Shown here piece after piece: positions 8,661 to 38,883 of a stretch of 64,000 nt of DNA. The notes below the pieces were generated by a model that saw only the letters and a list, made by a program, of their open reading frames with translations, ran no database searches and was not told the origin of the DNA. The stretch covers positions 4,610,850 through 4,674,849 of the forward strand of contig NZ_JACBZA010000001.1 of NCBI RefSeq assembly GCF_013408535.1, read 5' to 3'. The position numbers and the translations under genes were made by a program. How positions within the stretch are numbered: the first letter of the stretch is position 1; every line of letters begins with the position of its first letter. Source of the DNA: Actinopolymorpha cephalotaxi (GTDB lineage: Bacteria; Actinomycetota; Actinomycetes; Propionibacteriales; Actinopolymorphaceae).

Positions 8661-8661
8661 G

Positions 8662-17867: not shown

Positions 17868-18476
17868 TCACGCGACGGGGAAGTCGAAGTACGTGTCCGG
17901 GTAGGGCTCCTCCTTCAGGGTGTAGTGCCACCACTCGACGTCGTACCGGACGAATCCGCAGTCCTCCATGATCGAGCAGAGGTGCTGCCGGTTCTTCGCT
18001 TCGGCCGGTGTGATCCCTCGTGCGCCGAGGTGTGAGATCGGGTCCATCAGATCGTGGTCACCGCCCATGGCTGCGAGCTCACCGGTGGCCAGGTGAAAGA
18101 GCGTCAGGTCGACGGTGCTGCCCCGGCTGTGACCGGACTTCGCGGCGACATAGCCCTTCGCGAACATCTCGGCCCTGTCGATGTTCGGATAGTGTCGTAG
18201 CTTCGTCCGGCCGTCCTCGGGTGACTTTGCCCACTGTGCAAAGGAGCTCACCGCGCGCTGCGGGCGGTAGCCGTCCCAGAGAAGCAGGCCGAAGCCGAGG
18301 GACGCGGCCCTGCCCTGTGCTCTGCGCAGCGCGGCGCACAAGGCCGTCGTACCGACCACTCGGTTCGCCACGTACCCGTCCACCGGTTTGCCGACGAAGT
18401 TGTCCCAGGTGGCGTACTTGGCGTCCCAGCGGATGCCGGGTACGAACTCGTCGACGAAGACGAAGTCCTCTCTCAC
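17868..18476 (-). CDS. vanX: VanX D-Ala-D-Ala dipeptidase
   Basis: 202 residues, the same length as enterococcal VanX, so numbering coincides: the zinc ligands H116 and D123 lie in SGHSRGSTVDLT and H184 in EWWHY, with the catalytic base E181 and R71 in WDGYRP. It hydrolyses D-Ala-D-Ala dipeptide so that cell-wall precursors cannot end in the vancomycin target. Start GTG 18476 overlaps the vanA stop (GTGA); the frame continues upstream inside vanA, but the family start is here. It is the last gene of the vanHAX operon, and lies in the cytoplasm. Confidence 0.95.
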   Translation of the reverse strand: MREDFVFVDEFVPGIRWDAKYATWDNFVGKPVDGYVANRVVGTTALCAALRRAQGRAASLGFGLLLWDGYRPQRAVSSFAQWAKSPEDGRTKLRHYPNIDRAEMFAKGYVAAKSGHSRGSTVDLTLFHLATGELAAMGGDHDLMDPISHLGARGITPAEAKNRQHLCSIMEDCGFVRYDVEWWHYTLKEEPYPDTYFDFPVA

Positions 18477-19513: not shown

Positions 19514-20547
19514 GACGCTCCCCCACGTTCGAAGTTCAGGCAGTTGACGAGACTGTTCTCCACCGTGTCGCTCAGGGCGTGGTCGGTGTAGTAGGCGATG
19601 TGCGGACTGACGAACACGTTCGGCAGTTGCTGCAGGCGTGACAGGGGCAGGCTCTCGACGGGTCTGCCCCGGCAGTCGGCGTAGAAGATCCCTTCCTCAC
19701 CTTCGACGACGTCCAGTGCCGCGCCGCCCAGCGCGCCCTTCTCCAGCGCGGAGAGCAGGGCCTCGGTGTGCAGAAGCGATCCACGTCCGGTGTTGACGAC
19801 GACCGCGCCGGGTTTCATCCTCGCGATGCGTTCGGCGTCCAGGAGGTGGTGCGTGTCCGGGGTGAGTGGGGTGTGCAGCGTGACGATGTCGCTGCTCTGT
19901 AACAGGTCGTCGAGGGGTACGTAGTCGGCGGCGGCCACGGGCTGACTGTCATGGGCGAGGATCCGGCAACCGAAACCGCGCAACCTGTCCATGACAGCCC
20001 TGCCGATGCGCCCCGTTCCGACCACTCCGACGGTCAGGTCGCGCAGCTCTCTTCCGCGTACGTCGCCGAGCCGGTAGTCATGGGTGTCCACCCGGCGGAT
20101 GGTGGACTTCGCGTGGCGCACGGCCATCAGCATGAGCATCAACGTGTAGTCGGCCACGCTGTCCGGTGAGTAGACGACGTTCTCGACGGTGATGCCGATC
20201 CTGCGCGCGTAGTCCACGTCGAGATGGTTGTAGCCGATGCTTCTCGTGGAGATGTACTCCACGCCGACCTGGCTGAGTGCGAGCAGGGCGGAGTTCGTGA
20301 CCTGCGCCCGGTGGCCGATGCTGATGGAACGGTTTCCGGCTGCCAACTCGATGTTGACGTCGGACACCGCCGCCTCGGTGATGATCGGCAGTACGCCGAA
20401 ACGCGGCGCCAGCGCCCGGAACAACGCGGCCTCGTCCTGGCCGCATCCATAGATCGTGATCCCCCTTGCGGGAAGGGACGGTGAGGTGGAGGCGGCCGCG
20501 GACCGGGTGCGGTAGGCGGCCGTTCGTGCGGGTCCCCTGTAGGTCAT
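19510..20547 (-). CDS. vanH: VanH D-lactate dehydrogenase
   Basis: 345 residues from ATG 20547. Conserved VanH sequence begins near ITIYGCGQDEA, after a 30-residue Ser/Thr/Ala-rich N-terminal extension that may not be translated if a later start is used. It has the NAD-binding VGTGRIGR motif and the catalytic set of D-2-hydroxyacid dehydrogenases: Arg in NTGRGSLL, Glu in LDVVEGEE, His in SPHIAYYT. It reduces pyruvate to D-lactate for VanA. It is first in the operon. The 197-bp gap to the divergent gene at 20745 must hold the promoter; I see no vanR or vanS gene nearby. Confidence 0.95.
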   Translation of the reverse strand: MTYRGPARTAAYRTRSAAASTSPSLPARGITIYGCGQDEAALFRALAPRFGVLPIITEAAVSDVNIELAAGNRSISIGHRAQVTNSALLALSQVGVEYISTRSIGYNHLDVDYARRIGITVENVVYSPDSVADYTLMLMLMAVRHAKSTIRRVDTHDYRLGDVRGRELRDLTVGVVGTGRIGRAVMDRLRGFGCRILAHDSQPVAAADYVPLDDLLQSSDIVTLHTPLTPDTHHLLDAERIARMKPGAVVVNTGRGSLLHTEALLSALEKGALGGAALDVVEGEEGIFYADCRGRPVESLPLSRLQQLPNVFVSPHIAYYTDHALSDTVENSLVNCLNFERGGAS

Positions 20548-20744
20548 GACCCAAGTCAAGGCAGCCGGGCGTTGCCGGCCCGTATGCGGTTCTCGATACG
20601 CGGGCGATATGCCGGCGATGGGTTCGGGTGAGGGCACGGGGACACCGGGGCGTCACAGCGTTCGTCGTACCCTGTCGTGAGCTTGGGCAGGCCCGGGAGC
20701 CGCCGGCCAACTGCCAACGAGACCGGACATCAGGAGAGGTCAGG

Positions 20745-22358
20745 ATGCCTGAACTGAACGCGGACGTGCTCGTCGTCGGTGGCGGCCTGGGCGGGGTGGC
20801 CGCCGCGCTCGCAGCCTGTCGCGCCGGTCGGCGGGTCGTGCTCACCGAGGAGACCGACTGGATCGGCGGGCAGCTGACCAGCCAGGCTGTCCCGCCGGAC
20901 GAGAACCCCTGGATCGAGCAGTTCGGCGCCACCGCGATGTACCGCGAACTTCGTGAGGGCATCCGCGCCTACTACCGACGGCACTATCCGCTCCGCCACC
21001 GCGCCGCGGCAGACCCCCGACTGAACCCCGGTGCCGGTCGGGTCAGCAAGCTGTGCCACGAACCCCGGGTCGCGCTCGCGGTCCTGGATGCGATGCTCGC
21101 GCCACACCGGGCCGCGGGCCGGCTCACGGTGTTGCTGGAGACGGTGCCGGTGGCAGCGGAGACCGACGGCGACCACGTGCGTGCGGTCGAGTTGCTGGAC
21201 CGGCGTACGGGCCGACACCTCACCGCTTCGGCGCCGTACGTCATCGACGCCACCGAGTGTGGAGACCTGCTGGCGTTGACGAAAACGGAGTACGTCACCG
21301 GCGCGGAGTCGCGGGAGGAGTACGACGAGCCACACGCACCGGCCGAGGCGGCGCCCGGAAACCAGCAGGGCTTCACGTTCTGCTTCGCGATCGAGCATCG
21401 TGCCGGTGAGGACCACACCATCGACCGGCCGGAGACGTACTCCTTCTGGCGCGACTATCGGCCCGCCTTCTGGCCCGGCCCACTGCTCGGGCTGCTGGCC
21501 CCGCACCCGCGGACTCTCGAACCCGTCCCCCGCACCTTCGTGCCCAACCCGGCCGAGGATCCGCTGGACGTCACCGCCGACCAGAGCAAGGACGGCGGCG
21601 ACCTCGACCTGTGGCTCTTCCGGCGCATCCTCGCCCGCGGCATGCACGAGCCGGGCAGCTTCGACTCCGACATCACCTTGGTCAACTGGCCGATGAACGA
21701 CTACTGGCTGGGCAACGTGGTGGATGTGGACGAGGAGACTGTCAACGCCAGCCTGACAGCGGCTCGCCAGCTCAGTTTCTCGTTGCTGTACTGGCTGCAG
21801 ACCGAGGCGCCGCGCCCCGACGGCGGCACCGGCTGGCCGGGCCTGCGGCTGCGCGGCGACGTCACCGGCTCCGCCGACGGGCTGGCGAAGTCGCCGTACA
21901 TCCGCGAGTCCCGGCGTATCCGTGCCGTCACCACCGTCACCGAGAACGACGTGTCGCTGGACGTGCTCGGCGCGTACGGCCGGGTCTCCCACGCGGACTC
22001 GGTGGGCATCGGCAGCTACCACCTCGACCTGCACCCGAGCACCGGCGGGGACACCTACATCGACCTGGAGAGCGTGCCGTTCGAGATCCCACTCGGGGCG
22101 ATGGTGCCGAGGAGGATGCGCAACCTGTTGCCGGCGGCGAAGAACCTCGGCACCACCCACATCAGCAACGGTTCGTTCCGCCTACACCCGGTGGAGTGGA
22201 ACATCGGCGAGGTGGCCGGGCGGCTGGCCGCGCACTGCCTCGACACCGGGACCGAACCCCACCAGGTGCAGGGTGAGGAGTCCCGCTTCGCGGACTTCGC
22301 TCGGGTCCTCGACCGGGCCGGAGTCGAACGCCACTGGCCGGACGTGCGGGGGTACTGA
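20745..22358 (+). CDS. FAD-dependent oxidoreductase (FAD_oxidored family)
   Basis: 537 residues from ATG 20745, with AGGAGAGG upstream. The N-terminal dinucleotide motif is VLVVGGGLGGVAAALAACRAGRRVVLTEE, followed by TDWIGGQLTSQ, the signature of the FAD_oxidored family. A central IDATECGDLLAL and a C-terminal ISNGSFRLHPVEWNIGEVAG close the flavin site. Members are often found with sugar catabolism and act on unknown hydroxylated substrates. There is no signal peptide. The alpha/beta hydrolase follows after 51 bp and is probably co-transcribed. Confidence 0.85.
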   Translation: MPELNADVLVVGGGLGGVAAALAACRAGRRVVLTEETDWIGGQLTSQAVPPDENPWIEQFGATAMYRELREGIRAYYRRHYPLRHRAAADPRLNPGAGRVSKLCHEPRVALAVLDAMLAPHRAAGRLTVLLETVPVAAETDGDHVRAVELLDRRTGRHLTASAPYVIDATECGDLLALTKTEYVTGAESREEYDEPHAPAEAAPGNQQGFTFCFAIEHRAGEDHTIDRPETYSFWRDYRPAFWPGPLLGLLAPHPRTLEPVPRTFVPNPAEDPLDVTADQSKDGGDLDLWLFRRILARGMHEPGSFDSDITLVNWPMNDYWLGNVVDVDEETVNASLTAARQLSFSLLYWLQTEAPRPDGGTGWPGLRLRGDVTGSADGLAKSPYIRESRRIRAVTTVTENDVSLDVLGAYGRVSHADSVGIGSYHLDLHPSTGGDTYIDLESVPFEIPLGAMVPRRMRNLLPAAKNLGTTHISNGSFRLHPVEWNIGEVAGRLAAHCLDTGTEPHQVQGEESRFADFARVLDRAGVERHWPDVRGY

Positions 22359-22409
22359 CCTGACCAACCGCACGCTCAGTGCCGGCCGCCGCGGGTAGGG
22401 TGCTGAGGC

Positions 22410-23240
22410 ATGGCCCTCAACCTGACGCCGATCGACATCCGTGGACTCACCCTCGACGTGGCGGCCGGCGGACCGGAGGACGGTCCGGCGGTCCTGCTGC
22501 TGCACGGCTTCCCGCAGCACGCCGGCGAGTGGGATCAGGTGGTCCCGTCGCTGCACGCCGCCGGGCTGCGCACCTACGCGCTCAACCAGCGCGGCTACTC
22601 GCCCGGCGCCCGGCCGGCCGCGGTCGAGGACTACCGGGTGGCCGAGTGCGTCGCCGACGCATTGGCGGTGCTGGACGCGGTGAACGTCGACGTCGCGCAC
22701 GTCGTCGGCCACGACTGGGGTGCGATGGTCGCCTGGGTCCTGGCCGCCGGGCACCCCGACCGGGTACGCACCCTGACCGCGGTGTCCGTGCCGCACCCGG
22801 CAGCGTTCGCGCAGGCCCTCGCGACCGACGCGGACCAGCGGGAACGTTCGTCGTACATGCAGCTGTTCCGGCAGCCGGGCACGGCCGAGCAGATGTTGCT
22901 CGCCGACGACGCGGCGGCGCTGCGCGGGGTGTTCGCCGGTCTCGGCGCGGAGCGCATCAACTCCTATGTCGAGCCGATGCGCGAGCCGGGCGCGCTGACC
23001 GCGGCACTGAACTGGTACCGCGCGATGTCCCTCGACGAGGTGGCCGGTCCGGTCACCGTGCCGACCACGTACGTCTGGAGTGACGGCGACGTCGCGGTCG
23101 GCCGGACGGCCGCCGAGGCGTGCGCCGCCCACGTCACCGGCGACTACCGGTTCGTCGCCCTGGACGGGGTGACGCACTGGATCCCGGACGAGGCGCCGGA
23201 CGCGGTCGCCGAGGCGGTGCTGGCCCGCATCGCCGACTGA
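22410..23240 (+). CDS. Alpha/beta hydrolase (epoxide-hydrolase/haloalkane-dehalogenase-like)
   Basis: 276 residues. The oxyanion-hole motif is LLLHGFPQHAGEW, the nucleophile elbow is GHDWGAMV with Asp as nucleophile, and the catalytic His is in VTHWIPDEAPD. An aspartate nucleophile points to epoxide hydrolase or dehalogenase chemistry rather than esterase. A small hairpin (CCGGC, 7-nt loop, GCCGG at 23250-23266) lies just after the stop, between this gene and the convergent PBP gene, and may help termination. Confidence 0.8.
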   Translation: MALNLTPIDIRGLTLDVAAGGPEDGPAVLLLHGFPQHAGEWDQVVPSLHAAGLRTYALNQRGYSPGARPAAVEDYRVAECVADALAVLDAVNVDVAHVVGHDWGAMVAWVLAAGHPDRVRTLTAVSVPHPAAFAQALATDADQRERSSYMQLFRQPGTAEQMLLADDAAALRGVFAGLGAERINSYVEPMREPGALTAALNWYRAMSLDEVAGPVTVPTTYVWSDGDVAVGRTAAEACAAHVTGDYRFVALDGVTHWIPDEAPDAVAEAVLARIAD

Positions 23241-25179: not shown

Positions 25180-26235
25180 ATGACGACTCCGTCCGACGCC
25201 ACGACTCCGGGCCGCCTCCCGCGCTGGGAGAACGCCGAGGTGGTGGACTGTGACGTCCGCGTGGCCGCCCCCTCCGTCGAGGCCGTCCAGCCCTTCCTCG
25301 CACCACGGTGGCAGGACTACCTGGCCGAAAGCGGTGTGCGGACGATCGGCTCGGAGCGCTACCCCAGGCTCCCCGGCACCTCGGGCGACCTCACGGCGCT
25401 CCGCGACCGTCTCCTCGACCGCTGGCAGACCCGTTACGCCGTACTGAACTGCGGGATCGAGATCTCCTCGATCCACAACGAGGACTGGGCTCTGGCCATG
25501 GCACGCGCTGTCAACGACTGGTTGGCAGCCGAACGGCTCGCCCACGACCCACGGCTGCGCGGGTCGATCGTGGTGCCACCGCAGAGTCCCGACGCGGCCG
25601 CCGAGGAGATCGACCGTCTGGCGCAGCACCCGGGCTTTGTCCAGGTCCTGCTGCCGGTACGCGCCGAGGCGCCGCTCGGCAAGCGACGGTACTGGCCGAT
25701 CTACGAGGCGGCCGAGCGGCACGGTCTGCCGGTCGGCATCTTCGCCGGCGGCACGAGCGGCAACCCGACGACTCCGGTCGGCTGGCCGTCGTACTACCTC
25801 GAGGACTACGTGTCGTACGCACAGGCGTTCCAGGCCCAGGTGGTCAGCCTGGTGAGCGAGGGCGTCTTCACGAAGTACCTCGCCCTCAAGGTGGTGCTCG
25901 TGGAGGCCGGCTTCACCTGGCTGCCCGGCCTGATGTGGCGGTTCGACAAGAACTGGAAGGGACTACGCCGCGAGGTGCCCTGGGTGGATCGGCCACCGTC
26001 GGAGGTCATCCGCGACCACCTGCGGCTCACCACCCAACCGCTCGACGAGCCGGAGGACCCTCAGCACCTGGTGGAGACGATCGCGCAACTCGGTTCGGAC
26101 GACATGCTGATGTTCGCCACCAACTATCCGCACCGGCAGTTCGACTCCGACGAGGGCGTGCTCCCGTCCGGCCTGCCACCCGAGGTCGAGCAAAGGATCC
26201 TCGCGGGCAATGCCCACGACACCTACAGGTTCTGA
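25180..26235 (+). CDS. Amidohydrolase-2 family protein lacking metal ligands (probable pseudoenzyme)
   Basis: 351 residues, plainly homologous to the next gene (shared segments near GWPSYYxED and RRYWxIYEAAERHGLPVGI). Every metal-site residue kept by that paralogue is changed here: the DxH histidine is R27, the HxGG histidine is F188, the FQAH histidine is Q220 and the STD aspartate is N315. It is therefore unlikely to decarboxylate or hydrolyse by itself and may be a structural or regulatory partner of the active enzyme. The start is ATG 25180, after a run of CGACGACGAGG-like repeats. Next gene 30 bp downstream. Confidence 0.8.
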   Translation: MTTPSDATTPGRLPRWENAEVVDCDVRVAAPSVEAVQPFLAPRWQDYLAESGVRTIGSERYPRLPGTSGDLTALRDRLLDRWQTRYAVLNCGIEISSIHNEDWALAMARAVNDWLAAERLAHDPRLRGSIVVPPQSPDAAAEEIDRLAQHPGFVQVLLPVRAEAPLGKRRYWPIYEAAERHGLPVGIFAGGTSGNPTTPVGWPSYYLEDYVSYAQAFQAQVVSLVSEGVFTKYLALKVVLVEAGFTWLPGLMWRFDKNWKGLRREVPWVDRPPSEVIRDHLRLTTQPLDEPEDPQHLVETIAQLGSDDMLMFATNYPHRQFDSDEGVLPSGLPPEVEQRILAGNAHDTYRF

Positions 26236-26265
26236 GCAAGTACGGCGACGAGGAGAGGACACGTC

Positions 26266-27339
26266 ATGGTCGCGACCGCCACACGAAACCGCGGCATGGT
26301 GGTCGACTGCGACATCCACAACTCGACCTGGCCGGGTGCCCTCGATCCGTACCTGTCCGCACGGTGGCGCAGGCACGGCGAGCTCTTCGGCTCGCGAACC
26401 CATCCCGGATCGCTGTACCCCAAGGGAAGTCCGGCCGCTGCCCGCCACGACGCCTGGCCGCCGTCGGGCAGACCACCGGGCGGCGACCTGGAGTTCATGC
26501 GCGAGCAGCACCTTGATCCGGAGGGCATCGAGTACGGCATCCTCAACTGCCTCGGAGCCGCCGGCACCCAGCTCAACGCCGACTACGCCTCGGCGCTGTG
26601 CCAGGCCACCAACGAGTGGCAGATCGCGGAGTGGCTGGAGAAGGAACCCCGCCTGCGGGCCGGGATCGCGGTGCCGTACGAGGACGCCGAACTCGCGGTC
26701 GAGCAGATCGACCGGTTCGCCGACCACCCGGGATTCGTCCAGGTGCTGCTGATCGCGCGGACGGCCGAGCCGCTCGGGCGGCGCAGGTACTGGAAGATCT
26801 ACGAGGCCGCCGAACGCCACGGCCTTCCGGTCGGCATCCACTTCGGCGGCGGCGCCCGCGGCGTACCCGTCACCGCCTCGGGCTGGCCGTCGTACTACAT
26901 CGAGGACCACACCGACATGGCGCAGGCGTTCCAGGCGCACGTCGTGAGCCTTGTCTGCGAAGGGGTTTTCGAGCGCTTCCCCGGCCTGCGGGTCGTCCTC
27001 ATCGAGGGCGGCTTCGCCTGGCTCCCGCCGCTGATGTGGCGGCTGGACAAGCACTGGCGCCGGCTCCGGGACGAGGTGCCGCACCTGACCAGGCGGCCGT
27101 CGGAGTACGTCCGCGAACACGTCTGGGTCACCACCCAGCCGATCGAGGAGCCGCACGACCCGAGCGACATCCGTACGGTGCTGGAACACCTCGGCGGCCC
27201 GGACCGGGTGATGTTCTCCACCGACTATCCGCACTGGGACTACGACGATCCCGACCGCGCTTTCCGGGTCCGGCTGCCGGAGCAGGACCGGCAGCGGATC
27301 TTCTCCCAGAACGCCAAGGAGCTGTACGGGCTCCGGTGA
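26266..27339 (+). CDS. Amidohydrolase-2 family metalloenzyme (decarboxylase or hydrolase)
   Basis: 357 residues, TIM barrel of the ACMSD / gamma-resorcylate decarboxylase class. The ligand set is intact: D16-x-H18 in VVDCDIHN, H192 in GIHFGG, H225 in FQAHVVS and D320 in STDYPHWD. It probably binds one divalent metal and acts on a carboxylated or cyclic substrate. It is 30 bp downstream of its degenerate paralogue and 27 bp upstream of the Rieske gene, so all three should be one operon. Confidence 0.85.
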   Translation: MVATATRNRGMVVDCDIHNSTWPGALDPYLSARWRRHGELFGSRTHPGSLYPKGSPAAARHDAWPPSGRPPGGDLEFMREQHLDPEGIEYGILNCLGAAGTQLNADYASALCQATNEWQIAEWLEKEPRLRAGIAVPYEDAELAVEQIDRFADHPGFVQVLLIARTAEPLGRRRYWKIYEAAERHGLPVGIHFGGGARGVPVTASGWPSYYIEDHTDMAQAFQAHVVSLVCEGVFERFPGLRVVLIEGGFAWLPPLMWRLDKHWRRLRDEVPHLTRRPSEYVREHVWVTTQPIEEPHDPSDIRTVLEHLGGPDRVMFSTDYPHWDYDDPDRAFRVRLPEQDRQRIFSQNAKELYGLR

Positions 27340-27366
27340 CCCCGTTGACTTCGAAAGGCTGGCACG

Positions 27367-27828
27367 ATGCCGAAACACGTGGTCGCGCGGGTGGACGACA
27401 TACCGCCGGGGCAGCGGAAGATCGTCACCGTCGCCGGGCGGTCGGTCGGCGTCTTCAACGTGGGCGGGGAGTTCTTCGCGATCCGCAACCAGTGCCCGCA
27501 CGAGGGCGGTCCGCTGTGCGAGGGTGTCGTGTCCGGGTTGGTGAGCTCGAAGATCCCCGGAGAGTACGACTACGTCCGGCGCGGTGAGATCGTGCGATGT
27601 CCCTGGCACCAGTGGGAGTTCGACCTCAGGTCCGGATGGTCGTGGTTCGACCCGGCGAGGACCAGGGTGCAGACGTACGAGACCACGATCGAGAGCTCGA
27701 CCGATACCGAGCGGAGCACCAGTGCGGGGGACGCCGATCTGGACGCGGCCGGCTACCGGAAGGGACCGTACGAGGCCGAGACGTACCGCGTCGAGGTCGA
27801 CCACCGGCTGGTGGTCCTGCACCTCTGA
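27367..27828 (+). CDS. Rieske [2Fe-2S] protein
   Basis: 153 residues. The cluster ligands are C43-x-H45 and C78-x2-H81 (RCPWHQWEF). The spacing between the two ligand pairs (32 residues) is longer than the usual 15-20 and holds an insertion SGLVSSKIPGEYDYVRRG; a similar insertion is known in Rieske proteins paired with amidohydrolases. After the cluster there is a polar C-terminal region. It may deliver electrons to an oxygenase or act as a structural subunit; no oxygenase is present in the window. It is the last gene of the three-gene unit and converges with the Opp operon. Confidence 0.85.
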   Translation: MPKHVVARVDDIPPGQRKIVTVAGRSVGVFNVGGEFFAIRNQCPHEGGPLCEGVVSGLVSSKIPGEYDYVRRGEIVRCPWHQWEFDLRSGWSWFDPARTRVQTYETTIESSTDTERSTSAGDADLDAAGYRKGPYEAETYRVEVDHRLVVLHL

Positions 27829-27850: not shown

Positions 27851-28906
27851 TCAGCGCGACTCCCCCGCGTGCTCGGAGGCGACCCCGGCCAGGCGCAGCG
27901 CCTCGGAGTGGTGGCAGGCCGCCAGGTGGTCTCCGGCGACCGTACGCAGGGCAGGCGCCTCGGCCACGCAGCGTTCCTGGTCGGCGTACCGGCATCGGGT
28001 GTGGAAGTAGCACCCGTCCGGTGGGTTCGCCGAGTCCGGGAAGTTGTCCGCCAGCCGCACCCGTCGTCCGGTGCCGCGCAACCGCGGATCGGGCCGGGGC
28101 ACCGCGGACAGCAGCGCCTCGGTGTAGGGGTGCTCGGGCCTGCGATAGAGCTGGTCGGTGTCGGCGAGCTCGACGATCCTGCCGAGATACATCACGGCGA
28201 CGCGGTTGCAGATGCTCTCCACCACCGACATGTCGTGGGAGATGAACAGGTACGTCAGGTTGAGGTCGTCCTGCAGATCCCTGAGCAGGTTGAGGATCTG
28301 CGCCTGGACGGAGACGTCCAGGGCGGAGACCGCCTCGTCGGCGATGACAAGCTCCGGTTGCAGGATGAGTGCGCGGGCGATGTTGACTCGCTGCCGCTCT
28401 CCCCCGGAGAACGCGTGCGGATAGCGGCGCATGTGCCCCGGTGAAAGTCCCACCTTGGCGAGGATCTCCGCGACCCGGTCCTCCACCTCCGAACCACGTG
28501 CCAGGCCGTTGGCGACCAGCGGGTCACCGACGATCTGCAGGATCGTCATCCGGGGGTTCAGCGAGGAGAACGGATCCTGGAACACGACCCGGATCCGCTG
28601 CTGGTAGGGGCGCAACTCCCGGTTGCCCAGTGCGGCCAGGTCAACCGTGCCGCCACCCTCGGTGCGGTAGTGCAGCTGCCCGGCGGTGGGCTGCACACTG
28701 CGGACGATGCACCGGCCGAGGGTCGTCTTGCCACAGCCGGACTCACCGACCAGTCCGAGCACCTCGCCGGGGCGGATGGTGAAGTTGACGTCGTTGACGG
28801 CGTGCACGTGACCCCTCGTACGAGCGAACAACCCTCGTCCCCGGATGGGGAAATGCATCCGGAGGTTCTCCACCCGCAGCAGCGGCTCCTGTGGCGCAGA
28901 GGTCAT
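27851..28906 (-). CDS. Oligopeptide/dipeptide-type ABC transporter ATPase (OppF-like)
   Basis: 351 residues from ATG 28906. Walker A is GESGCGKTT, signature FSGGERQR, Walker [13 protein letters not shown] (Ala where ABC ATPases usually have Pro), H-loop ISHDMS. The C-terminal oligo_HPY region ([11 protein letters not shown] and a C-x6-C-type pair around CYFHTRCRY and ERC) is the hallmark of Opp/Dpp ATPases, and its cysteines may bind an Fe-S cluster. The start overlaps the upstream gene stop (ATGA). It is the last gene of the five-gene transporter operon. Confidence 0.9.
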
Positions 28907-29943
28907 CGAGGCTCCTCTCCGAACTCCTGAACGCCGGGGGCCTGGCCGGCCATCACGTCCGGGTCGTGGCGTACGCATCGGACCCGCCGGGCACCTTCGA
29001 GCTCCACCACCGGAGGATCGACCGTCTCGCACAGTCCCGGCACGGCGTAGTCGCAGCGCGGGTGGAAGGGACAGCCACCCGGCCGGTCGAGTGGGTGTGG
29101 GACCTGTCCGCGGATGGAGTTCAGCGGCTGGCGGGCACCCCGGCCCATGGTGGGTATGGAGGCGAGAAGCGCCTTGGTGTACGGGTGTTTCGGGTCGTGG
29201 AAGATGTCGTCGACACCGCCCTGCTCGACGACCGTTCCGAGATACATCACGACCACCTCGTCCGCGATCTCGGCGACCACCCCGAGGTCGTGGGTGATGA
29301 ACATCATCGACATTCCGGTGTCGGACTGGATGTCGACCAGCAGGTCGATGATCCGGGCCTGGGTGGTGACGTCGAGCGCGGTGGTGGGTTCGTCCGCGAT
29401 CAGCAGACTCGGCTCGCAGGACAGGGCCATGGCGATCATCACCCGCTGGCACATGCCGCCGGACAGCTGGAACGCGAAGCTGTTCATGGTCTGTGCCGGC
29501 CGCGGGATACCGACCCGCTCCAGCAACTGGATCCCACGCCTCCGCGCCTCGTCCCGGGTCATCGTCCGATGCGCGAGGATCGCCTCGGTCAGCTGGTTCG
29601 CGATCGTGTACGCCGGTGAGAGCGACGCCATCGGTTCCTGGAACACCATCGCGATCTGGCCGCCCCGCACCTGCCGCATGCGTTCGCCGTGGGAGTCCAG
29701 GGCCGCGAGGTCGGTGCCCTCCTTCCACCAGATGTGGCCGTCGACGATCCGCCCCGGCGGGTCGATCAGGCCCAGGATGGAGCGGGCGGTGATGCTCTTC
29801 CCACAGCCCGACTCCCCGACCACGCAGACCGTTCGTCCGGCCGGCAGGCTCAGGTTGACACCATCGACGGCTCGTACCACACCCTCGTCGGTGAAGAAGT
29901 GCGTCCTGAGTCCCTCGACGGTCAGCAGTGCGTCGGGCGCCAT
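28903..29943 (-). CDS. Oligopeptide/dipeptide-type ABC transporter ATPase (OppD-like)
   Basis: 346 residues from ATG 29943, preceded by AGGAG. Walker A is GESGCGKSI, signature LSGGMCQR, Walker B LLIADEPTTALD, H-loop ITHDLG, with the Opp-type C-terminal cysteine motif (CPFHPRCDYAVPGLC). It partners with OppF to power import. It is 10 bp downstream of the OppC-like permease. Confidence 0.9.
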   Translation of the reverse strand: MAPDALLTVEGLRTHFFTDEGVVRAVDGVNLSLPAGRTVCVVGESGCGKSITARSILGLIDPPGRIVDGHIWWKEGTDLAALDSHGERMRQVRGGQIAMVFQEPMASLSPAYTIANQLTEAILAHRTMTRDEARRRGIQLLERVGIPRPAQTMNSFAFQLSGGMCQRVMIAMALSCEPSLLIADEPTTALDVTTQARIIDLLVDIQSDTGMSMMFITHDLGVVAEIADEVVVMYLGTVVEQGGVDDIFHDPKHPYTKALLASIPTMGRGARQPLNSIRGQVPHPLDRPGGCPFHPRCDYAVPGLCETVDPPVVELEGARRVRCVRHDPDVMAGQAPGVQEFGEEPR

Positions 29944-29953
29944 CGGGTTTCTC

Positions 29954-31084
29954 CTACTGTCGGTAGGGATCTGCCGCGTCACGCAGGCCGTCCCCGACGA
30001 AGTTGAGTGAAAGTACGGCGAGGACCACGGCCAGGCCCGGCACCATCAACCACGGCGCGGTGGCAACCACCTGCACGTCCTGCGCGGCCTGCAGCAGCAC
30101 GCCCCAGCTGACGACCGGAGCCTGCAAACCCAGTCCCAGGAAGGACAGCGCGGTCTCGGCCAGGATCATGCCCGGGATCGACAGGGTGAGCGAGGCGATC
30201 AGGTGGCTGGTGAACAACGGGAGCATGTGCCGCAGGATCATCCTCGCCGGGCGGTTGCCGTCCAGCCTGGCCGAGCTGATGAAGTCCTCCATCCGCAGCG
30301 AGACGAAGCGACCCCGGGTGACCCGGGCGAGGTCGGTCCAGGCGAAGGTCGCCAGGATCACCGTGATCGCGAAGTAGCGTCGCAGTGGTCCCCAGGCGCT
30401 CGGGACCGCGGCGGCGAGCCCGAGCCACAGGGGCAGGGTGGGTACGGACATGAAGAACTCGACCGCACGCTGGATCAGGGTGTCCGTCCGGCCGCCCAGG
30501 TAGCCGGAGATCCCGCCGAGCACCACGCCCAGCACGAACGCCATGGTGACGCCGATCAGGCCGATCGTCATCGAGACCCGGGTGCCGTAGACCAGTCGGG
30601 AGAACAGATCGCGCCCACTCTGGTCCGAGCCGAGGAGATACATCGGCTCACGGTCGTCCACCGGTCCGATGAGGTGCGTCCGGCTCGGGATCAGCCCCCA
30701 CAGCCGATACTCCTCCCCGCGGTCGAACAACCGCACCTCGACCTTCTTCGACGGATCGACCCGGTAGACGCGGGCGAGGGTGTCCGGATCCCTGCCCGCG
30801 ACATAGCCGTTCACGTACAGCCCGAACTCCCACCCACCGTGGCTGGTGTCGATGACGTGCAGGCGCTGTGGCGGCGCGTAGGGGTGGCCCTGGTCGAACT
30901 TCGCCACCGAGAACGGCGCCAGGAACTCCGCGAAGGCCGCCACCAGGTAGAGCAGGAGCGTGACCACCGCCCCGATCATGGCCAGCCGGTGCTTCCGGAA
31001 CGCCCGCCACACCAGCCGGGACTGGCTCGCCGAACCGCGCGGCTGTGCCCGTTCCCGCGGCGGGTCCTCCGGCAGTGTGGTCAT
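29954..31084 (-). CDS. Oligopeptide/dipeptide-type ABC permease (OppC-like)
   Basis: 376 residues from ATG 31084, with GAGGAG seven bases upstream. There is an N-terminal OppC_N helix (about 38-60), a long extracytoplasmic insert (about 65-150), then five helices with the EAA-type loop around ARLDGNRPARMILRHMLP that docks to the ATPases. The insert is longer than in typical OppC, as seen in members of the family associated with large substrate-binding proteins and glycans. Confidence 0.88.
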   Translation of the reverse strand: MTTLPEDPPRERAQPRGSASQSRLVWRAFRKHRLAMIGAVVTLLLYLVAAFAEFLAPFSVAKFDQGHPYAPPQRLHVIDTSHGGWEFGLYVNGYVAGRDPDTLARVYRVDPSKKVEVRLFDRGEEYRLWGLIPSRTHLIGPVDDREPMYLLGSDQSGRDLFSRLVYGTRVSMTIGLIGVTMAFVLGVVLGGISGYLGGRTDTLIQRAVEFFMSVPTLPLWLGLAAAVPSAWGPLRRYFAITVILATFAWTDLARVTRGRFVSLRMEDFISSARLDGNRPARMILRHMLPLFTSHLIASLTLSIPGMILAETALSFLGLGLQAPVVSWGVLLQAAQDVQVVATAPWLMVPGLAVVLAVLSLNFVGDGLRDAADPYRQ

Positions 31085-31095
31085 GGTCGCTCTCC

Positions 31096-32088
31096 TCACC
31101 GATCGCCCAGTCGTACGCGCGGATCCAGCCAGGCAAGGGCGATGTCGGACAGCAGCGTGCCGATGACGGTGAGGACGCTGACGATGAGGATGAGCGACCC
31201 GGCGAGGTACATGTCCTGGCTGAGCAGCGCGCTCAGCAGCAACGGCCCCGTGGTGGGCAGCGACAGGACCTGCGCGACGATGACCTCACCGGACACCAGC
31301 AGCGGCAGGATCCACCCGATGGTCGAGACGAACGGGTTCATCGCGATCCGCAACGGATACTTCACCACGATCTTGCGTTCGCGGATGCCGCGAGCCCGGG
31401 CGGCCACGACGTAGGGCTTGCGCAACTCGTCCAGCAGGTTGTTCCGCAGGATCCGGATCAGCCCCGCGGTGCCGGCCGTACCCAGCACCACCACCGGCAC
31501 CCACAGGTGCCCCAGCAGGTCGACCACCTTGCCGAGGTTCCACCGCGCGTCGGCGAACGTCGGGGAGAACAACCCGCCCACGCTCAGGCCGAAGTAGCGG
31601 TAGCCGAGATACATGAGGACCAGGGCGATCAGGAAGTTCGGCACCGCCAGGCCGAGGAAGCCGATCGTGGTGAAGAGATAGTCGCCGAGGGAGTACTGCC
31701 GTACGGCGGAGTAGAGGCCGACCGGGAAGGCGATCACCCAGGTGAACACCAGCGTCGTCAGCGCCATCACGATGGTGAGCGGCAGCCGCTGCGCGAGCAG
31801 GTCCGCCACCGGACGGTTGTACTGGAACGACTGGCCGAAGTCCAGATGCAGGCCGATGGCGGAGATCCACTTGAGGTACTGCACGTAGAGAGGCTGTCCC
31901 AGCCCGTACCGGTGTTCGAGCGTCGCGAGCTGACCCGCGTCGACCTGCACACCCTGCGCCCGCATCTGCGCGACCAGCGTCGTCAGGTAGTCACCCGGCG
32001 GCAGGGAGATGATCGCGAACGTCACCACCGAGATCAGGAACACCGTGGGGACCATGTAGAGCACACGGCGCAGTACGAAGGTGAGCAT
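31096..32088 (-). CDS. Oligopeptide/dipeptide-type ABC permease (OppB-like)
   Basis: 330 residues from ATG 32088, which overlaps the binding-protein stop by one base (TGATG). An N-terminal membrane helix (MLTFVLRRVLYMVP) is followed by five more; the EAA-type loop is around ARARGIRERKIVVKYPLRIAMNP. It forms the channel with OppC. The frame is open far upstream inside the binding-protein gene, but that part is not this protein. Confidence 0.9.
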   Translation of the reverse strand: MLTFVLRRVLYMVPTVFLISVVTFAIISLPPGDYLTTLVAQMRAQGVQVDAGQLATLEHRYGLGQPLYVQYLKWISAIGLHLDFGQSFQYNRPVADLLAQRLPLTIVMALTTLVFTWVIAFPVGLYSAVRQYSLGDYLFTTIGFLGLAVPNFLIALVLMYLGYRYFGLSVGGLFSPTFADARWNLGKVVDLLGHLWVPVVVLGTAGTAGLIRILRNNLLDELRKPYVVAARARGIRERKIVVKYPLRIAMNPFVSTIGWILPLLVSGEVIVAQVLSLPTTGPLLLSALLSQDMYLAGSLILIVSVLTVIGTLLSDIALAWLDPRVRLGDR

Positions 32089-34055
32089 CACTCCCCTTCC
32101 AGGTAGTACTGGCTGATGTTCGTCACCGCCGGGTACGGGCACTTGAAGGCGAGCCACATCCTGTTGTCCCCGGGCACGTTGTGGATGCGGTCGCTGACGA
32201 TCGCGTAGGACTCGGCAGGGCGGCTGATCCCCATCGTCCAGAACTCGTCCCGCGCGATCTCGATGATCTCCTTGATGCCGGCGTACTGCGTGTCGACGTC
32301 GCTGGTGCCCACCACCTTCTGGCGGTAGAGCGCGGCCTGCCGGCGCATCGCCTCGGGCGGCTCCTCCTTCGGGGTTCCGCCCTCGTACCACCTCGACCAC
32401 AGGGGCGCGTACGACGAACCTCCGGTGGCGAACAGCCAGCGCGGGTCGGTGAGCATGTCGACGTAACCGATCTCGCCGACGTCGAGGGTGCAGTCGTACT
32501 TGTTGGCGTCCATGCGGGTGCCCACGAGCTCGGGGCTCGCGGTGTCGATGCGCAGCTCGACGCCGACCTTCGCCCAGGTCCCCTTGACGAACTCCATCGC
32601 GTCGATCATCACCGGGTAACGGCTTTGGATCAGCACGCTGACGACGATCGGTTTGCCGTCCGCGCCGAGCCGCCGGCCTCTCGCGTCGGTACGGGTGTAA
32701 CCGGCCTTCTCCAGATGCTGCCGGGCCAGCTTCAGGTCGTACACGGTGTACTGCGTGCCCATGTCGTCGGACTTGTAGAACGACACCTCGGGCCTGGGCG
32801 CGGTCTGCCACGGCACGCCCTGCCCCAGGAACACCAGGTCGATGATCTGCGGCCGGTTGATGGCGTGGGACAGGCCGATGCGGAAGTCCTTGTTCTGGAA
32901 CATCCTTCGCTTGTTCGGATCCTCGTGGGTGAGGTTGAGGCAGATGCCGATGGTGTTGTGGGTGGGGTCCTTCACCTTGACCAGCTTGTAGCCGCCGTTC
33001 TTCTGGCCCCGGGCCAGGACGGGACGGTTCTTCGGCGTGGTCACCTCCGCCCGCATGTACAGGTCGACGTCGCCGTTGGCCGCCTGGAGGATGAGCGGCC
33101 CCTGCTCCTGGAAGAACGTGAACACGACCTTGTCGATGTAGGGAAGCTGGCTGCCGTCGGGATCGACCTTGAAGTAGTAGGGGTTTCGCTCCCACACCTG
33201 GCGGTCGCCGTCTCCGTGCGGGTTCTTCGGCACCCATCCGGTGAGCACCGGCAGGTCGACGTTGTTGAGCTCGTCGATCTTCTCCAGGAACGTCTGCGCC
33301 CAGTCCTTGCCCAGGTTGGGATTGGAGTCCTTGTGGAACTGCTCGAGGTAGTGCCGTGGAAGCAGCCGGAACGGCGGGCCGTGAATGGCGAGGTTCTGCA
33401 GGAAGAGCGCGTTGGGCTCGGGAAACCTGAACGTCACCGTGTGGTCGTCCTGCTTCTCCACCACCAGCGGCTTGCCGTTGATCTGCAGAGTGGACGGGAG
33501 GACCGGCGTGATCTCCTTGTTCAGGTAGATCTTCTCGTACCAGAAGAGCAGGTCGTCGGCGGTGAAGAGTTTGCCGTCTGACCACTTCATGCCCGCACGA
33601 AGCTTGAAGACGTACTCCCGTCCGTCGCCCCTGATCTCGTACGACTCGGCGACGTTCGGGATGATCTTTCTCCAGGTCGGGTCCCACGAGATCAGATGGT
33701 CGTGGCACACGGTCATCCACAACCAGCTCGGGTCCGTGCTGGCCTCGACCGTGCGCCAGGTGCCGCCGTAGACCCCGGCGCGCTCCAGCGGCTGGATCAC
33801 TCGCGGGTTGGCCGGCAGTCGTTTCGCCACCGGGGGCAGGCTTCCCGCCTTCACCCGCGCCGCCAGCATCGGCGCCTCCTTGCCCTTGGCGGTGGTCGCT
33901 CCCGCCCTGCCACCGGACCTGGACCGGTCGGCGCTTTCGGGATCCATGGAGAACGCGCTGCAGGCGGGGAGCAGGCTGGTGCCGGCCAGCGCCGCGCCCA
34001 GCGCGAGAAAGTCCTTGCGTGAGATGTCGCGTCTCGAACCGAAGTTCCCAGGCAT
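32088..34055 (-). CDS. Extracytoplasmic substrate-binding lipoprotein (SBP_bac_5 family)
   Basis: 655 residues from ATG 34055. A twin-arginine-like signal (SRRDISRKDFLAL) ends in the lipobox LLPAC, so the mature protein is membrane-tethered. SBP_bac_5 features are present (LRAGMKWSDGKLFTADDLLFWY and HAINRPQIIDLVF). At 655 residues it is about 100 longer than classical OppA/DppA, as for members binding oligosaccharides or large peptides. It heads the transporter operon. With a probable glycosidase under the same candidate operator, a carbohydrate-derived ligand is a reasonable inference. Confidence 0.9.
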   Translation of the reverse strand: MPGNFGSRRDISRKDFLALGAALAGTSLLPACSAFSMDPESADRSRSGGRAGATTAKGKEAPMLAARVKAGSLPPVAKRLPANPRVIQPLERAGVYGGTWRTVEASTDPSWLWMTVCHDHLISWDPTWRKIIPNVAESYEIRGDGREYVFKLRAGMKWSDGKLFTADDLLFWYEKIYLNKEITPVLPSTLQINGKPLVVEKQDDHTVTFRFPEPNALFLQNLAIHGPPFRLLPRHYLEQFHKDSNPNLGKDWAQTFLEKIDELNNVDLPVLTGWVPKNPHGDGDRQVWERNPYYFKVDPDGSQLPYIDKVVFTFFQEQGPLILQAANGDVDLYMRAEVTTPKNRPVLARGQKNGGYKLVKVKDPTHNTIGICLNLTHEDPNKRRMFQNKDFRIGLSHAINRPQIIDLVFLGQGVPWQTAPRPEVSFYKSDDMGTQYTVYDLKLARQHLEKAGYTRTDARGRRLGADGKPIVVSVLIQSRYPVMIDAMEFVKGTWAKVGVELRIDTASPELVGTRMDANKYDCTLDVGEIGYVDMLTDPRWLFATGGSSYAPLWSRWYEGGTPKEEPPEAMRRQAALYRQKVVGTSDVDTQYAGIKEIIEIARDEFWTMGISRPAESYAIVSDRIHNVPGDNRMWLAFKCPYPAVTNISQYYLEGE

Positions 34056-34085
34056 CAACCAGACCCCCTTCGGGAGTCGCGTTGC

Positions 34086-34111
34086 GTGGAATACAGAATC
34101 CACATGGTGGA
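34086..34111. promoter_or_regulatory. Candidate IclR operator between transporter operon and iclR-type gene
   Basis: GTGGA-N8-TCCAC at 34086-34103 overlaps TCCAC-ATG-GTGGA at 34099-34111, giving three alternating half-sites about 30-55 bp upstream of the binding-protein start. A similar element, GTAGAACGCGAATTCCAC, is at 38808-38825 in front of the glycosidase gene (12 of 18 positions identical to the first element). Confidence 0.5.
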
Positions 34112-34251
34112 ACTACTGGTAGCGCAGACGTTACGAGGCGTGCCGCGGGGCGTCAACGAGATACTGAGGCCTCCGGTGACCGGATACGGGCACCGGTGAC
34201 ATCGGCCGACACCACGGGGTGAGGCCTGTCCACCATGCGGAGGTACCACTG

Positions 34252-35028
34252 ATGACAGGGGCAACTGGTCGGCGAACCGGTGGCGTGCAGTCGGTCGAGC
34301 GGTCGCTGGAGTTGCTCGAACTCCTCGCCGACGCGGGAGGAGACGTCACCCTGAGCCAGCTCGCCAGCTCCTCCGGACTGCCGGCGCCGACGATCCACCG
34401 CCTGCTGCGGACTCTCGCCTCCGGCGGGTACGTACGCCAGGAGGAGTCCCGACGGTACGCCCTCGGGCCACGGCTGATCCGGCTCGGCGAGGCCGCCAAC
34501 CGGATGCTCGGAACCTGGGCCGGACCACACCTGCGGAGTCTGACGAAAGCCCTCGGCGAGACCGCCAACCTCGCACTGCTCGACGGTGACGAGGCGGTGT
34601 ACGTCGCGCAGGTGCAGTCCCAGCACGCGATGCGGATCTTCACCGAGGTGGGGCGGCACGTCTCGCTGCACTCCACCGGCGTGGGCAAGGCGCTGTTGGC
34701 ACTGAAGAGCGACGAGGAGGTCAGAGCCATCCTGGACCGCACCGGCATGCCTGCCCGGACACCGCGCACCATCACCCGGCGGCGGAGGTTCTTCGAGGAG
34801 CTCGGCTCCATCCGCGCGCGTGGGTACGCGATCGACGACGGCGAGCAGGAGGTCGGGGTGCGCTGCGTCGCCCTGACCGTGCCCGGAACCCCCACACCCA
34901 CAGCGCTTTCGGTGTCGGGGCCCGAGGCACGCATCACCGACGACGTGGTGGCCAACGCCGTACCCATGCTGCGACAGGCGGCGACCGAGCTCGCGGCCGA
35001 GCTCAGCTACCAGGAACGGGAGAGCTGA
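34252..35028 (+). CDS. IclR-family transcriptional regulator
   Basis: 258 residues from ATG 34252, with GGAGGT seven bases upstream. An N-terminal winged helix (VQSVERSLELLELLADAGGDVTLSQL, LPAPTIHRLLRTL) is followed by the IclR effector domain (HSTGVGKALLAL, ARGYAIDDGEQEVGVRCVA). It is divergent from the transporter operon and overlaps the convergent beta-propeller gene by 26 bp at the 3' end. It is the likely regulator of both. Confidence 0.9.
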   Translation: MTGATGRRTGGVQSVERSLELLELLADAGGDVTLSQLASSSGLPAPTIHRLLRTLASGGYVRQEESRRYALGPRLIRLGEAANRMLGTWAGPHLRSLTKALGETANLALLDGDEAVYVAQVQSQHAMRIFTEVGRHVSLHSTGVGKALLALKSDEEVRAILDRTGMPARTPRTITRRRRFFEELGSIRARGYAIDDGEQEVGVRCVALTVPGTPTPTALSVSGPEARITDDVVANAVPMLRQAATELAAELSYQERES

Positions 35029-36081: not shown

Positions 36082-38679
36082 TCACTCCTGTCGCTGGCGG
36101 ATCACGTGGTACGGCTGGTTCGCCAGCGTCTGGTCCAGCCCGGGGAGAAGCCAGGCGTCCCCGCTCGGGTGGTGGACGGTGAAGTAGTAGACGAGGGCGT
36201 GGTCGGAGTCGGTGTAGTCGCCGCCGACGCTCGCGCGAAAGGCGCCGTCGTCCTCGCGGCTCAGGTCGACGGCCTGGAAGTCCTCACCCTGGTTGAGATG
36301 CCGGTAGTGGCAGACCACCGTCCCGTCGAACGCCTCGCTCGGGGTGAGCTCGATCCGTACCTCCTCGCCCCGCGCGAACGGCGGCGGTGGCGTGTGCTCG
36401 AACGGAACTCGTTCGGCCGAGGGCACCTGCGGAAGCTCGCGCTCCGCGGTGGCTTCCGCCGACCTCGCCTGTTCGAATCGGCGTTCGAGGTCGGCCAGGT
36501 CCTCCTCGATCGCCGGCAGCCGGTCGGCCCAGTGACCGTGCTCGGAACGCAGGTCGCCGAAGGTGAGGTCGGGCCGGTAGGCCCCGGTGGTCACCTCCGC
36601 CACGCCCGCCCAGGCGTCCCGCGCCGACCGGTAGGCCGTTACCGCGTCACCCAGGTGACGGGCGTCGCCGGTCCGCTCGTGCAGCGCGTACTCCACACCT
36701 GCCCGGAACTTCCCGGCGAAGAACCGGCCCAACCCGGCCTGTGCCGCCACGTCGATCGCCACCCGGCGGAAGTTCGGATCGTCCCCCTGCGCCGACTTCT
36801 CCCGCGCCGCCGCGAGGTTCTGTTCGGCCTCCTCGGCGAGCCGCTCCAGCCAGCCGGCCACGTCCACCGGTGAGTACCGGCCGTCGCGGCGGCCGGCGAC
36901 CACGTCGTCGGCGTACTCGTCCACCCGGTAGAACAGGCTCGGGTCGAACGAGCTCACTCCGCCGAAGGTCGGCGGGGTCGCGGTGTCGCCACGGTAGTGG
37001 TCGGCGTTGGGCCCGCCGGCGATCGGCATGTTGAGGTACATCTCCGGCCAGTAACCGTTGTTCGACGCGCCGATGCCGTGCACGACGGTCACCAACGGCA
37101 GGACCCGGCTCGCCGGCGCCAGCGCGTTCTCGACCGCCTCGGCCGCGTCGCCGAACTCCGCCCGCAGGAACCGTCGCCACTGCTCGGGATCGGCGTCCGG
37201 GTCGTACAGCAGCCGGCCCCACAGCCGGTAGGTGTAGCGGTACTTCCGCCAGTCCTGGCCGTCCAACCGCAACGCGGGATCGGCGTACGGATCCCTGCCG
37301 TTCTGCTCTCCGGTGTTCTTGCGGCCCTTGAAACTAAGGGGTTCACACCACTCGATGCCCAGTGCGCCGCCGATGGTGCCCAGCCGGCCGTACCCCGCCG
37401 CGAGCACCGGATCTCCCCACAGCAACACCTTCTGGGTGCCCGGCCAGATGCGGAACACCAGCCCGACGTCACTGCCCTCGCGCAGGAAGTCGCCGTAGCC
37501 GTAGCGGGTGAACCGGCGCTGGTGCGCGGTGATCGCCATCAGCCCGGTGCCGCGTTCCTTCGTGGCGCGTTCGCGTTCCCTGATCGTCGTCTGGTGGTAC
37601 GGCAGGCCCTGGTGCTCCGCCCAGTACTTCGCCGACACCACCACCCGGCAACCTGTTCCGCGGGCGATCTCCAGCAGCGCCTCGTCCACACCCTTGGCGT
37701 GCATGTCGATCTCGATCGGGCGGCCCACCGTGGCGACCCCGCCCATCACCGTCTGCCAGAACGTCTCGTGGTCGGGCTCCGGGATGCCGCCCTCGTAGTG
37801 CACCCGCATCGTCAGGCCATCGATCGACGGGCACTCCCGCAGCAGCAGGGCAAGCGCGGCCGCGCAGTAGTCCGCGTGGTTGTCCGGGGTGATGCCGCCG
37901 ACCGGATAGCGCGGCTCCGAGCCCTCGCCCTGGTCGTCGGCGTGGTTCCACAGCCCGAGCTGGAAGTGGATGCCACGCCGCTTCGCCTCGTCGCTGATGA
38001 ACCGCAGCGTGGCGAGGTTCGCGTCGCGTTCCTCGGCAGGGACGTTCCCCACGCTGACGTCGAAGCCGGGAACGTCGAGCAGGAAGGGATATGGGAAGCA
38101 GAAGTAGTTCTCCGTCGCCGGATGATGTCCGTAGTTGTACTGCATGCCGAACGCCAGCTGGAAACGGTTGACGCGGTTGACGGCGAGCTCGGTGAGGTAC
38201 GCGGACCAGAACTCCCGGTCGTCGAACCACGGCTTGTCCTCGACGTCGCTGGTGAACGTGCGCAGGATGCTGCGCACCGGCGTCGCCGGTTGCTTGCTCT
38301 CCGGCGTCGTGCTGCGAAGCTCGGCCACCGGGTCGTCGGCATAGCGCACCCGGTCGGCCAGCTCCAGCACGCCGTACGCCACACCGCGGGCGTCGGCACC
38401 GCTCACGCTCACCTGCCCGTCGGCTCCGTCCGGACGGCTCAGCTCGAACGACTCCGCGGGGCCGTCGGCGTTCCCGTCGGCCACCCGGATCACGACGTCG
38501 GCTCGAGCCGTCCGCGGGTCCGGCGCCGACGCCTGCCGCACGGCGAGGCCGGAAGCTTCCAGGGCCTCGGTCAGGTGGTCGACCGACCACCGCACCGGAG
38601 CCTCGTTCACCACCGAACTCGTGGGATCCACGACGACGAGGACCGTCGCGGCATGGTCAGGATCGGCTGAAGCACTCAT
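36082..38679 (-). CDS. Large probable glycoside hydrolase with GH20-like N-terminal domain
   Basis: 865 residues from ATG 38679. Residues about 15-125 resemble the alpha/beta domain that precedes GH20 and related catalytic barrels (VVIRVADG, SVSGADARGVAYGVLEL). The next 450 residues look like a TIM barrel with many Trp, Asp and His (FQLGLWNHADD, TMRVHYEGGI, IEIDMHAKG, RIWPGTQKVLLWGDP). A helical C-terminal part and a last 100-residue beta domain follow. The exact family is not one I can name. No signal peptide is visible, so it probably processes an imported glycan. Confidence 0.65.
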   Translation of the reverse strand: MSASADPDHAATVLVVVDPTSSVVNEAPVRWSVDHLTEALEASGLAVRQASAPDPRTARADVVIRVADGNADGPAESFELSRPDGADGQVSVSGADARGVAYGVLELADRVRYADDPVAELRSTTPESKQPATPVRSILRTFTSDVEDKPWFDDREFWSAYLTELAVNRVNRFQLAFGMQYNYGHHPATENYFCFPYPFLLDVPGFDVSVGNVPAEERDANLATLRFISDEAKRRGIHFQLGLWNHADDQGEGSEPRYPVGGITPDNHADYCAAALALLLRECPSIDGLTMRVHYEGGIPEPDHETFWQTVMGGVATVGRPIEIDMHAKGVDEALLEIARGTGCRVVVSAKYWAEHQGLPYHQTTIRERERATKERGTGLMAITAHQRRFTRYGYGDFLREGSDVGLVFRIWPGTQKVLLWGDPVLAAGYGRLGTIGGALGIEWCEPLSFKGRKNTGEQNGRDPYADPALRLDGQDWRKYRYTYRLWGRLLYDPDADPEQWRRFLRAEFGDAAEAVENALAPASRVLPLVTVVHGIGASNNGYWPEMYLNMPIAGGPNADHYRGDTATPPTFGGVSSFDPSLFYRVDEYADDVVAGRRDGRYSPVDVAGWLERLAEEAEQNLAAAREKSAQGDDPNFRRVAIDVAAQAGLGRFFAGKFRAGVEYALHERTGDARHLGDAVTAYRSARDAWAGVAEVTTGAYRPDLTFGDLRSEHGHWADRLPAIEEDLADLERRFEQARSAEATAERELPQVPSAERVPFEHTPPPPFARGEEVRIELTPSEAFDGTVVCHYRHLNQGEDFQAVDLSREDDGAFRASVGGDYTDSDHALVYYFTVHHPSGDAWLLPGLDQTLANQPYHVIRQRQE

Positions 38680-38807
38680 CCGTCGTCCCTCGTTCCTGGG
38701 TCGTCTGCGTGCACATCGCGTGGTGAGGCCGACAGGTGCTCCGCGGTACTCGGCGGAGACGCCGGACCTTGGTGACTCAAGATGCTGGTGAGGATTGATT
38801 TCGTATC

Positions 38808-38825
38808 GTAGAACGCGAATTCCAC
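38808..38825. promoter_or_regulatory. Candidate IclR operator upstream of glycosidase gene
   Basis: GTAGAACGCGAATTCCAC, about 130 bp upstream of the glycosidase start in an AT-richer patch of the 204-bp gap. It resembles the element at 34086-34103 at 12 of 18 positions. Confidence 0.45.
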
Positions 38826-38883
38826 TACAGACAGGCCAGCGCAGGACCACATGCGGTCACCGGACACGAGAATGGTCGTTGGT

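Follow-up and report, generated by a model that had tools for sequence, protein, structure and literature searches.

What might an amidohydrolase-fold protein that has lost metal ligands do when it is encoded beside an intact paralog and a Rieske protein? This question was raised by three genes located in a 64,000-nucleotide stretch of the Actinopolymorpha cephalotaxi genome (hereafter the window), which encode the following products:

25180..26235, + strand: protein A, an AibH1-type (alpha') amidohydrolase-fold subunit, probably non-catalytic (351 aa; Pfam Amidohydro_2, 9.2e-38)
26266..27339, + strand: protein B, the predicted AibH2-type (alpha) catalytic subunit (357 aa; Pfam Amidohydro_2, 1.2e-56)
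27367..27828, + strand: protein R, an AibG-like Rieske [2Fe-2S] ferredoxin (153 aa; Pfam Rieske, 5.3e-16)

All three are open frames read in one direction, with a GC3 of 0.89-0.92. The gap between the A and B genes was measured as 30 bp, and the two proteins are 50% identical in a two-row alignment, so that both the spacing and the similar scaffold described in an earlier note on this DNA were borne out. The PF04909 fold of A and B was confirmed by Pfam matches and by Foldseek searches with predicted structures, while R carries the motif C43-x-H45 ... C78-x2-H81. Among its nearest named relatives, A is 86% identical to its counterpart in Actinopolymorpha rutila, 72% in A. alba and 69% in A. 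pittospori.

The best match of B among PDB sequences was AibH2 (6m1w_B; 3.5e-95), closely followed by 8sm7 (7.5e-94). PtmU3 matched at 1.6e-22, and the first decarboxylase (3s4t; 4.1e-20) appeared far below AibH2 and 8sm7. The best match of A was also 8sm7, a dinuclear oxygenase (4e-82), ahead of AibH1 (2e-71). Single-chain models of A and B, built from 28-row and 26-row alignments (mean pLDDT of 86.6 and 85.1, respectively), gave 8ful_G (TM 0.87, with 8sm7 second) and 8ful_F (TM 0.90) as top Foldseek matches; from their length and identity, chain G of 8ful was taken for AibH1 and chain F for AibH2, beside 8ful_A and 6m1w_B, the sequences of which were identified. AibH1H2, together with AibG and AibF, is published as a three-component monooxygenase that hydroxylates 2-aminoisobutyrate (PMC7782822), with Mn/Fe reported as its cofactor (PMC10401708), and Rieske-linked PF04909 oxygenases are described as a group whose members were found with the help of the adjacent Rieske gene (PMC10811679). 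The trio thus looks like a system of the AibH1/AibH2/AibG monooxygenase type, i.e. an "amidohydrolase-related dinuclear oxygenase" (ARO), which is a known kind of system, and the view of the earlier note that such chemistry and the role of an Fe-S protein beside it had not been described fails in the face of these publications. We propose, with a probability of roughly 0.86, that the trio is a monooxygenase of the AibH1H2 kind in which B would act as the oxygenase, R as its electron carrier and A as a structural partner. This reading builds on observed homology, clade membership, ligand states, conservation, gene linkage and purifying selection, from which we infer the complex, its metal content and activity, the electron flow, the bracing contact and the substrate.

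Homologs were searched for at three taxonomic levels: 6 of 8 genomes of the family held a match at 1e-60 and 17 of 293 genomes of the order at 1e-70, while at class level (1e-80) a match occurred only in the own genome among 394, with at most five candidates scored in the genomes shown. Matches with fewer than 250 aligned residues were removed before alignment. Of the 115 rows aligned, 98 went into the tree, for which the eight columns under study were left out. The 17 rows left off the tree comprise the fragments L025_20120 and L096_9010, both L055 rows, L060 and twelve more, which come from L047, L049, L052, L053, L056, L057, L059 and L061-L065. Two clades were recovered: an H1 clade of 39 rows that includes AibH1 and A (support 100/99) and an H2 clade of 41 rows that includes AibH2 and B (99/93), with long branches flagged by the tree program in several places, among them the L029, L100 and L103 rows inside these clades. 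Hence, the window encodes an H1-clade and an H2-clade subunit side by side, as expected of an AibH1H2-type pair.

The dinuclear center of AibH2 is described as being coordinated by D25, H27, H211, E265, D337 and H340, and as having a second-sphere residue, D342 (PMC7782822, PMC12141560). When these published numbers were checked on the alignment, all equivalents were found to be kept in B (D16, H18, H192, E247, D320, H323 and the second-sphere D325), as they are in 41 of 41 H2 rows; in its six ligands, its acidic second-sphere residue and the adjoining small Rieske protein, the locus has the features of an ARO. The site-0 ligands of AibH1 (D24, H26, H201, E255 and D328) correspond to D25, R27, F188, E242 and N315 in A, which therefore lacks three of the five (R, F and N for H, H and D), or three of the six residues of the dinuclear set; D25, E242 and H318 are kept, and the second-sphere Asp is replaced by Q320. 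The earlier note had claimed that all four metal ligands of B, namely H18, H192, H225 and D320, are replaced in A by R27, F188, Q220 and N315. These residues do align in pairs (F188 is one column off H192 in the two-row alignment and in register in a 93-row alignment), but only three of the substitutions concern ligands. The column of H225 holds Gln in AibH2 and is variable in the H2 clade (H in 19 rows, Q in 17, T in 2, V in 2 and N in 1), so that H225 is not a dinuclear ligand, and Q220 is uninformative since Gln occupies its column in all 39 H1 rows, including AibH1 with its intact site.

The mononuclear site 0 of AibH1 (D, H, H, E, D) is thus not preserved in A. As at least one of its ligands is lost in 20 of the 39 H1 rows, compared with none of the 41 H2 rows, site 0 does not define the H1 clade and is a feature of AibH1 itself. 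At the columns of D16, H18, H192, E247 and D320 of B, the H1 rows show eight combinations: DHHED, the intact set, in 19, DHQED in 10, DRFEN in 3, DQYED and DHYED in 2 each, and DQQED, DRQDE and QHYEG in 1 each. The R/F/N set was found only in the H1 proteins of three Actinopolymorpha genomes (the window, L021 and L101), the other 36 rows being spread over seven other combinations, and the idea that R/F/Q/N is a conserved signature, which the earlier note had offered for checking, was rejected, although the loss as such proved common. The variation among homologs that the earlier note had named as evidence against its reading is thus seen in part.

The recurrence of R/F/N in three genomes and the contrast between H1 and H2 point to more than chance, but the H1 and H2 rows are related by descent and hence are not independent, so changes were also counted on the tree. 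Parsimony required three changes between the intact and the lost state, with four letter changes at H18, five at H192 and three at D320. An intact row (L028), read from the tree as lying among lost ones, would imply more separate losses if regain is disallowed. Within H1, the six ligand columns and the one second-sphere column changed 1-6 times each (mean 3.3), while the 47 columns invariant in H2 changed on average 3.5 times. Since these seven columns change about as often as other H2-invariant columns, the changes look like relaxed constraint on an already non-catalytic site and not like a specially selected removal. A link between site loss in H1 and His at the B 225 column may exist: His is present in the H2 proteins of Actinopolymorpha, L031, L100 and the DHQ-type loci, but Gln in those of L027 and L030 (whose H1 is of the DHY type) and Asn in that of L103, and the distribution follows the tree.

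Two further observations were made on degenerate partners. The L103 locus (8407-11465; genome G002 of the window's genus) encodes the H1 protein with the QHYEG state, which forms a long separate branch within the H1 clade and has an intact H2 as well as a Rieske match beside it. Tandem amidohydrolase pairs of a second kind are present in L051, L054, L055, L058 and L067 (Chloroflexi, Thermomicrobiales), in which the downstream protein has N or A in place of D320 and often H323 replaced too; single degenerate rows also occur in L050 and L060. On the tree, the degenerate rows of L050, L051, L054, L058 and L067 group together (100/100) and apart from H1, so that a degenerate partner may have arisen twice, with long branches flagged in this region and L055 and L060 being off the tree.

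Site 0 of AibH1 is described as sterically occluded and has been proposed to be structural on the grounds that the protein became insoluble when its disruption was attempted (PMC10401708); by this token, A would need to be stabilized in another way. A is under purifying selection: in ten pairwise comparisons per gene by simple counting among five Actinopolymorpha loci, dN/dS was 0.14-0.28 for A, 0.07-0.17 for B and 0.10-0.32 for R. Furthermore, Lys257 and Trp268 of A are invariant in all 39 H1 rows, though Lys is not unique to H1 at its column, as it is found in 14 of 41 H2 rows including B (K262). According to a review, AibH1 K282 hydrogen-bonds D342 of AibH2 and AibH1 Y287 stacks on F341 (PMC12141560); replacement of this Asp (D342A) is reported to lower AibH2 activity (PMC10401708). 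We equated K282/Y287 with K270/Y275 in the 2021 numbering of AibH1, as these are the only Lys-Tyr pair five residues apart in the aligned part, which makes K257 of A the probable counterpart of the AibH1 Lys that touches the active-site Asp of AibH2, while Leu takes the place of the stacking Tyr in A, as it does in 36 of the 39 H1 rows.

These data also bear on the possibility that A is an active enzyme itself, carrying out metal-free or differently liganded chemistry through D25, E242 and H318. The retention of these residues, the purifying selection on the gene and the existence of characterized PF04909 enzymes reported to work without a cofactor (PMC10811679) would fit such a role, but the center of the H1 barrel varies while K257 and W268 do not, and the corresponding site in AibH1 is described as occluded, so we consider it improbable.

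Gene linkage was in line with a partnership of the three proteins. An H2 gene lies within 400 bp on the same strand in 35 of the 38 H1 rows with a locus, the exceptions being L040 and L068, where it is about 2.7 kb away, and L096 (1.2 kb), and a Rieske match was obtained with two queries within 4 kb in 33 of the 38; no such match was seen at L032, L034, L035, L038 and L031, the last lying close to a contig end. The view of the earlier note, in which A partners B without catalysis of its own and the Rieske protein completes the set, is therefore supported, the complex itself being postulated by analogy with AibH1H2. The same linkage speaks against a metal-dependent decarboxylase or hydrolase pair beside which the Rieske gene would be incidental. 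Decarboxylases such as gamma-resorcylate decarboxylase belong to the same Pfam family and do match B, but oxygenases match it better by a wide margin in both sequence and fold, and B possesses E247, H323 and D325 of the dinuclear set. The classification of B among PF04909 decarboxylases (gamma-resorcylate decarboxylase, ACMSD), as presumed in the earlier note, was accordingly rejected, and we regard this explanation as very improbable. A decaying A gene heading for loss is just as hard to credit and was likewise rejected: A has lost ligands and changes faster than B (86.0% versus 96.9% identity between the window and L021), but none of the five Actinopolymorpha loci compared shows a broken frame, its dN/dS resembles that of R in staying well under 1, and it keeps the H1-invariant residues.

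We thus return to the AibH1H2-kind monooxygenase. By analogy with AibH1H2, A and B would form an alpha2-alpha'2 complex with A in the structural alpha' role, in which B would bind a dinuclear metal center (Mn/Fe or Fe/Fe), activate O2 and hydroxylate a C-H bond of a small molecule, with electrons handed over by R from a reductase presumably encoded elsewhere in the genome. The metal bound by AibH1 is probably absent from the barrel of A, but A would still brace the metal-site loop of B, probably through contact of Lys257 with D325. As for the reductase, a related locus, L090, also holds a protein with Fer2 and NAD-binding domains, along with an enolase-superfamily protein (found in L093, too), an IclR regulator and a transport system. 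When the L090 reductase was used as the only query, the own genome yielded three partial matches, all of them outside the window (the best with 34% identity over residues 12-148 of 327), and by this test the electron chain is incomplete.

In the neighborhood, genes were chosen by GC3, as shadow frames dominated a clustering of all open frames. Two genes may belong to the system:

34219..35028, + strand: possible regulator, which shares 50% identity over 246 aa with an IclR-family regulator of L090, where a related trio is present
36082..38850, - strand: possible pathway neighbor (922 aa), with weak similarity to an alpha-galacturonidase model and BPa0997 from PDB

A - strand frame at 34131-34967 gave no match when scanned and is probably a shadow of the putative regulator gene. 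The 922-aa protein matched BPa0997 (6hzf), which we take to be a GH138 enzyme, at 2.1e-05, and the alpha-galacturonidase model far below its cut-off. A match to it is no more than about 9 kb away from an H1H2 pair in 6 of the 9 genomes that were chosen (G000, G001, G003, G004, G005 and G603, the pair in G005 being of the DHQ type) and not near such a pair in G002, G428 and G443; the nine genomes are a non-random set, six of them from the window's own genus. In G003, G004 and G005, one or two TGA occur inside the match, and in G603 it is split in two. Taken together, this weakly suggests that the trio is linked to the breakdown of a sugar compound derived from pectin or of a similar one, and nothing pointing to 2-aminoisobutyrate as a substrate was seen.

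The trio is also adjoined by a transport region, which comprises 27851-34103 (- strand), with a family-5 solute-binding protein (32088-34103, - strand) and ABC-type genes beside it that were recognized by eye, and 40203-48770 (- strand), with a family-1-type binding protein, a GH39-like gene and a protein 91% identical to a family-5 binding protein of L021. Upstream of the trio (20628-23240, + strand) are genes for an FAD-dependent oxidoreductase (PF12831, 2e-104) and then an alpha/beta hydrolase; among 11 other loci, the former was matched only in L101 and the latter only in L021. Genes at 17868-20637 (- strand) resemble a glycopeptide-resistance cluster and include a VanH-like D-lactate dehydrogenase (19510-20637, - strand; top NCBIfam model vanH-Amyco with 567.9 bits, below the cut-off of 625) and a D-Ala-D-Ala ligase family protein (18473-19513, - strand).

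If these pieces are combined, A might be a natural metal-free subunit of the AibH1 type in which the guanidinium of R27 replaces the structural metal between D25 and E242, giving a barrel devoid of a metal thought necessary for folding; the remaining task of H1 would be to hold the active-site loop of B by Lys257, and the oxygenase may serve a new class of substrates tied to a galacturonidase-like pathway, e.g. a sugar acid or an O-methyl sugar. This combined reading is tentative, and we think it unlikely that all of it will hold. The recurrent loss of site 0 among AibH1-type partners may be new, as we found no description of it in the passages of open-licence papers that were consulted. Naturally occurring losses of different degree (DHHED, DHYED, DHQED, DQYED, DQQED, DRFEN and others) make the role of this second metal site in AibH1 directly testable without engineering: one may ask whether the pair folds and oxidizes without site 0, and which helper contacts the catalytic subunit really needs.

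Among known systems, the closest is AibH1H2-AibG-AibF of Rhodococcus wratislaviensis, with which the window shares two neighboring PF04909 subunits and a small Rieske ferredoxin, the placement of A and B in the AibH1 and AibH2 clades and a complete dinuclear ligand set in B. It differs in that A lacks three of the five ligands used by AibH1 at site 0, in that the L090 reductase query revealed no AibF-like reductase in the window, and in that the scanned neighbors fall into families other than those listed for the aib cluster; moreover, A and B are 50% identical, whereas 28% is reported for AibH1 and AibH2 (PMC7782822). SfbO and other amidohydrolase-related dinuclear oxygenases (8sm6-8sm9) similarly combine a PF04909 dinuclear oxygenase gene with a neighboring Rieske gene, as described in PMC10811679, but 8sm7, the one solved member on the tree, falls outside both the H1 and H2 clades. 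PtmU3, finally, is a PF04909 dinuclear hydroxylase as well, yet it is only distantly similar to B and reportedly works in the absence of an AibH1-like subunit (PMC10401708).
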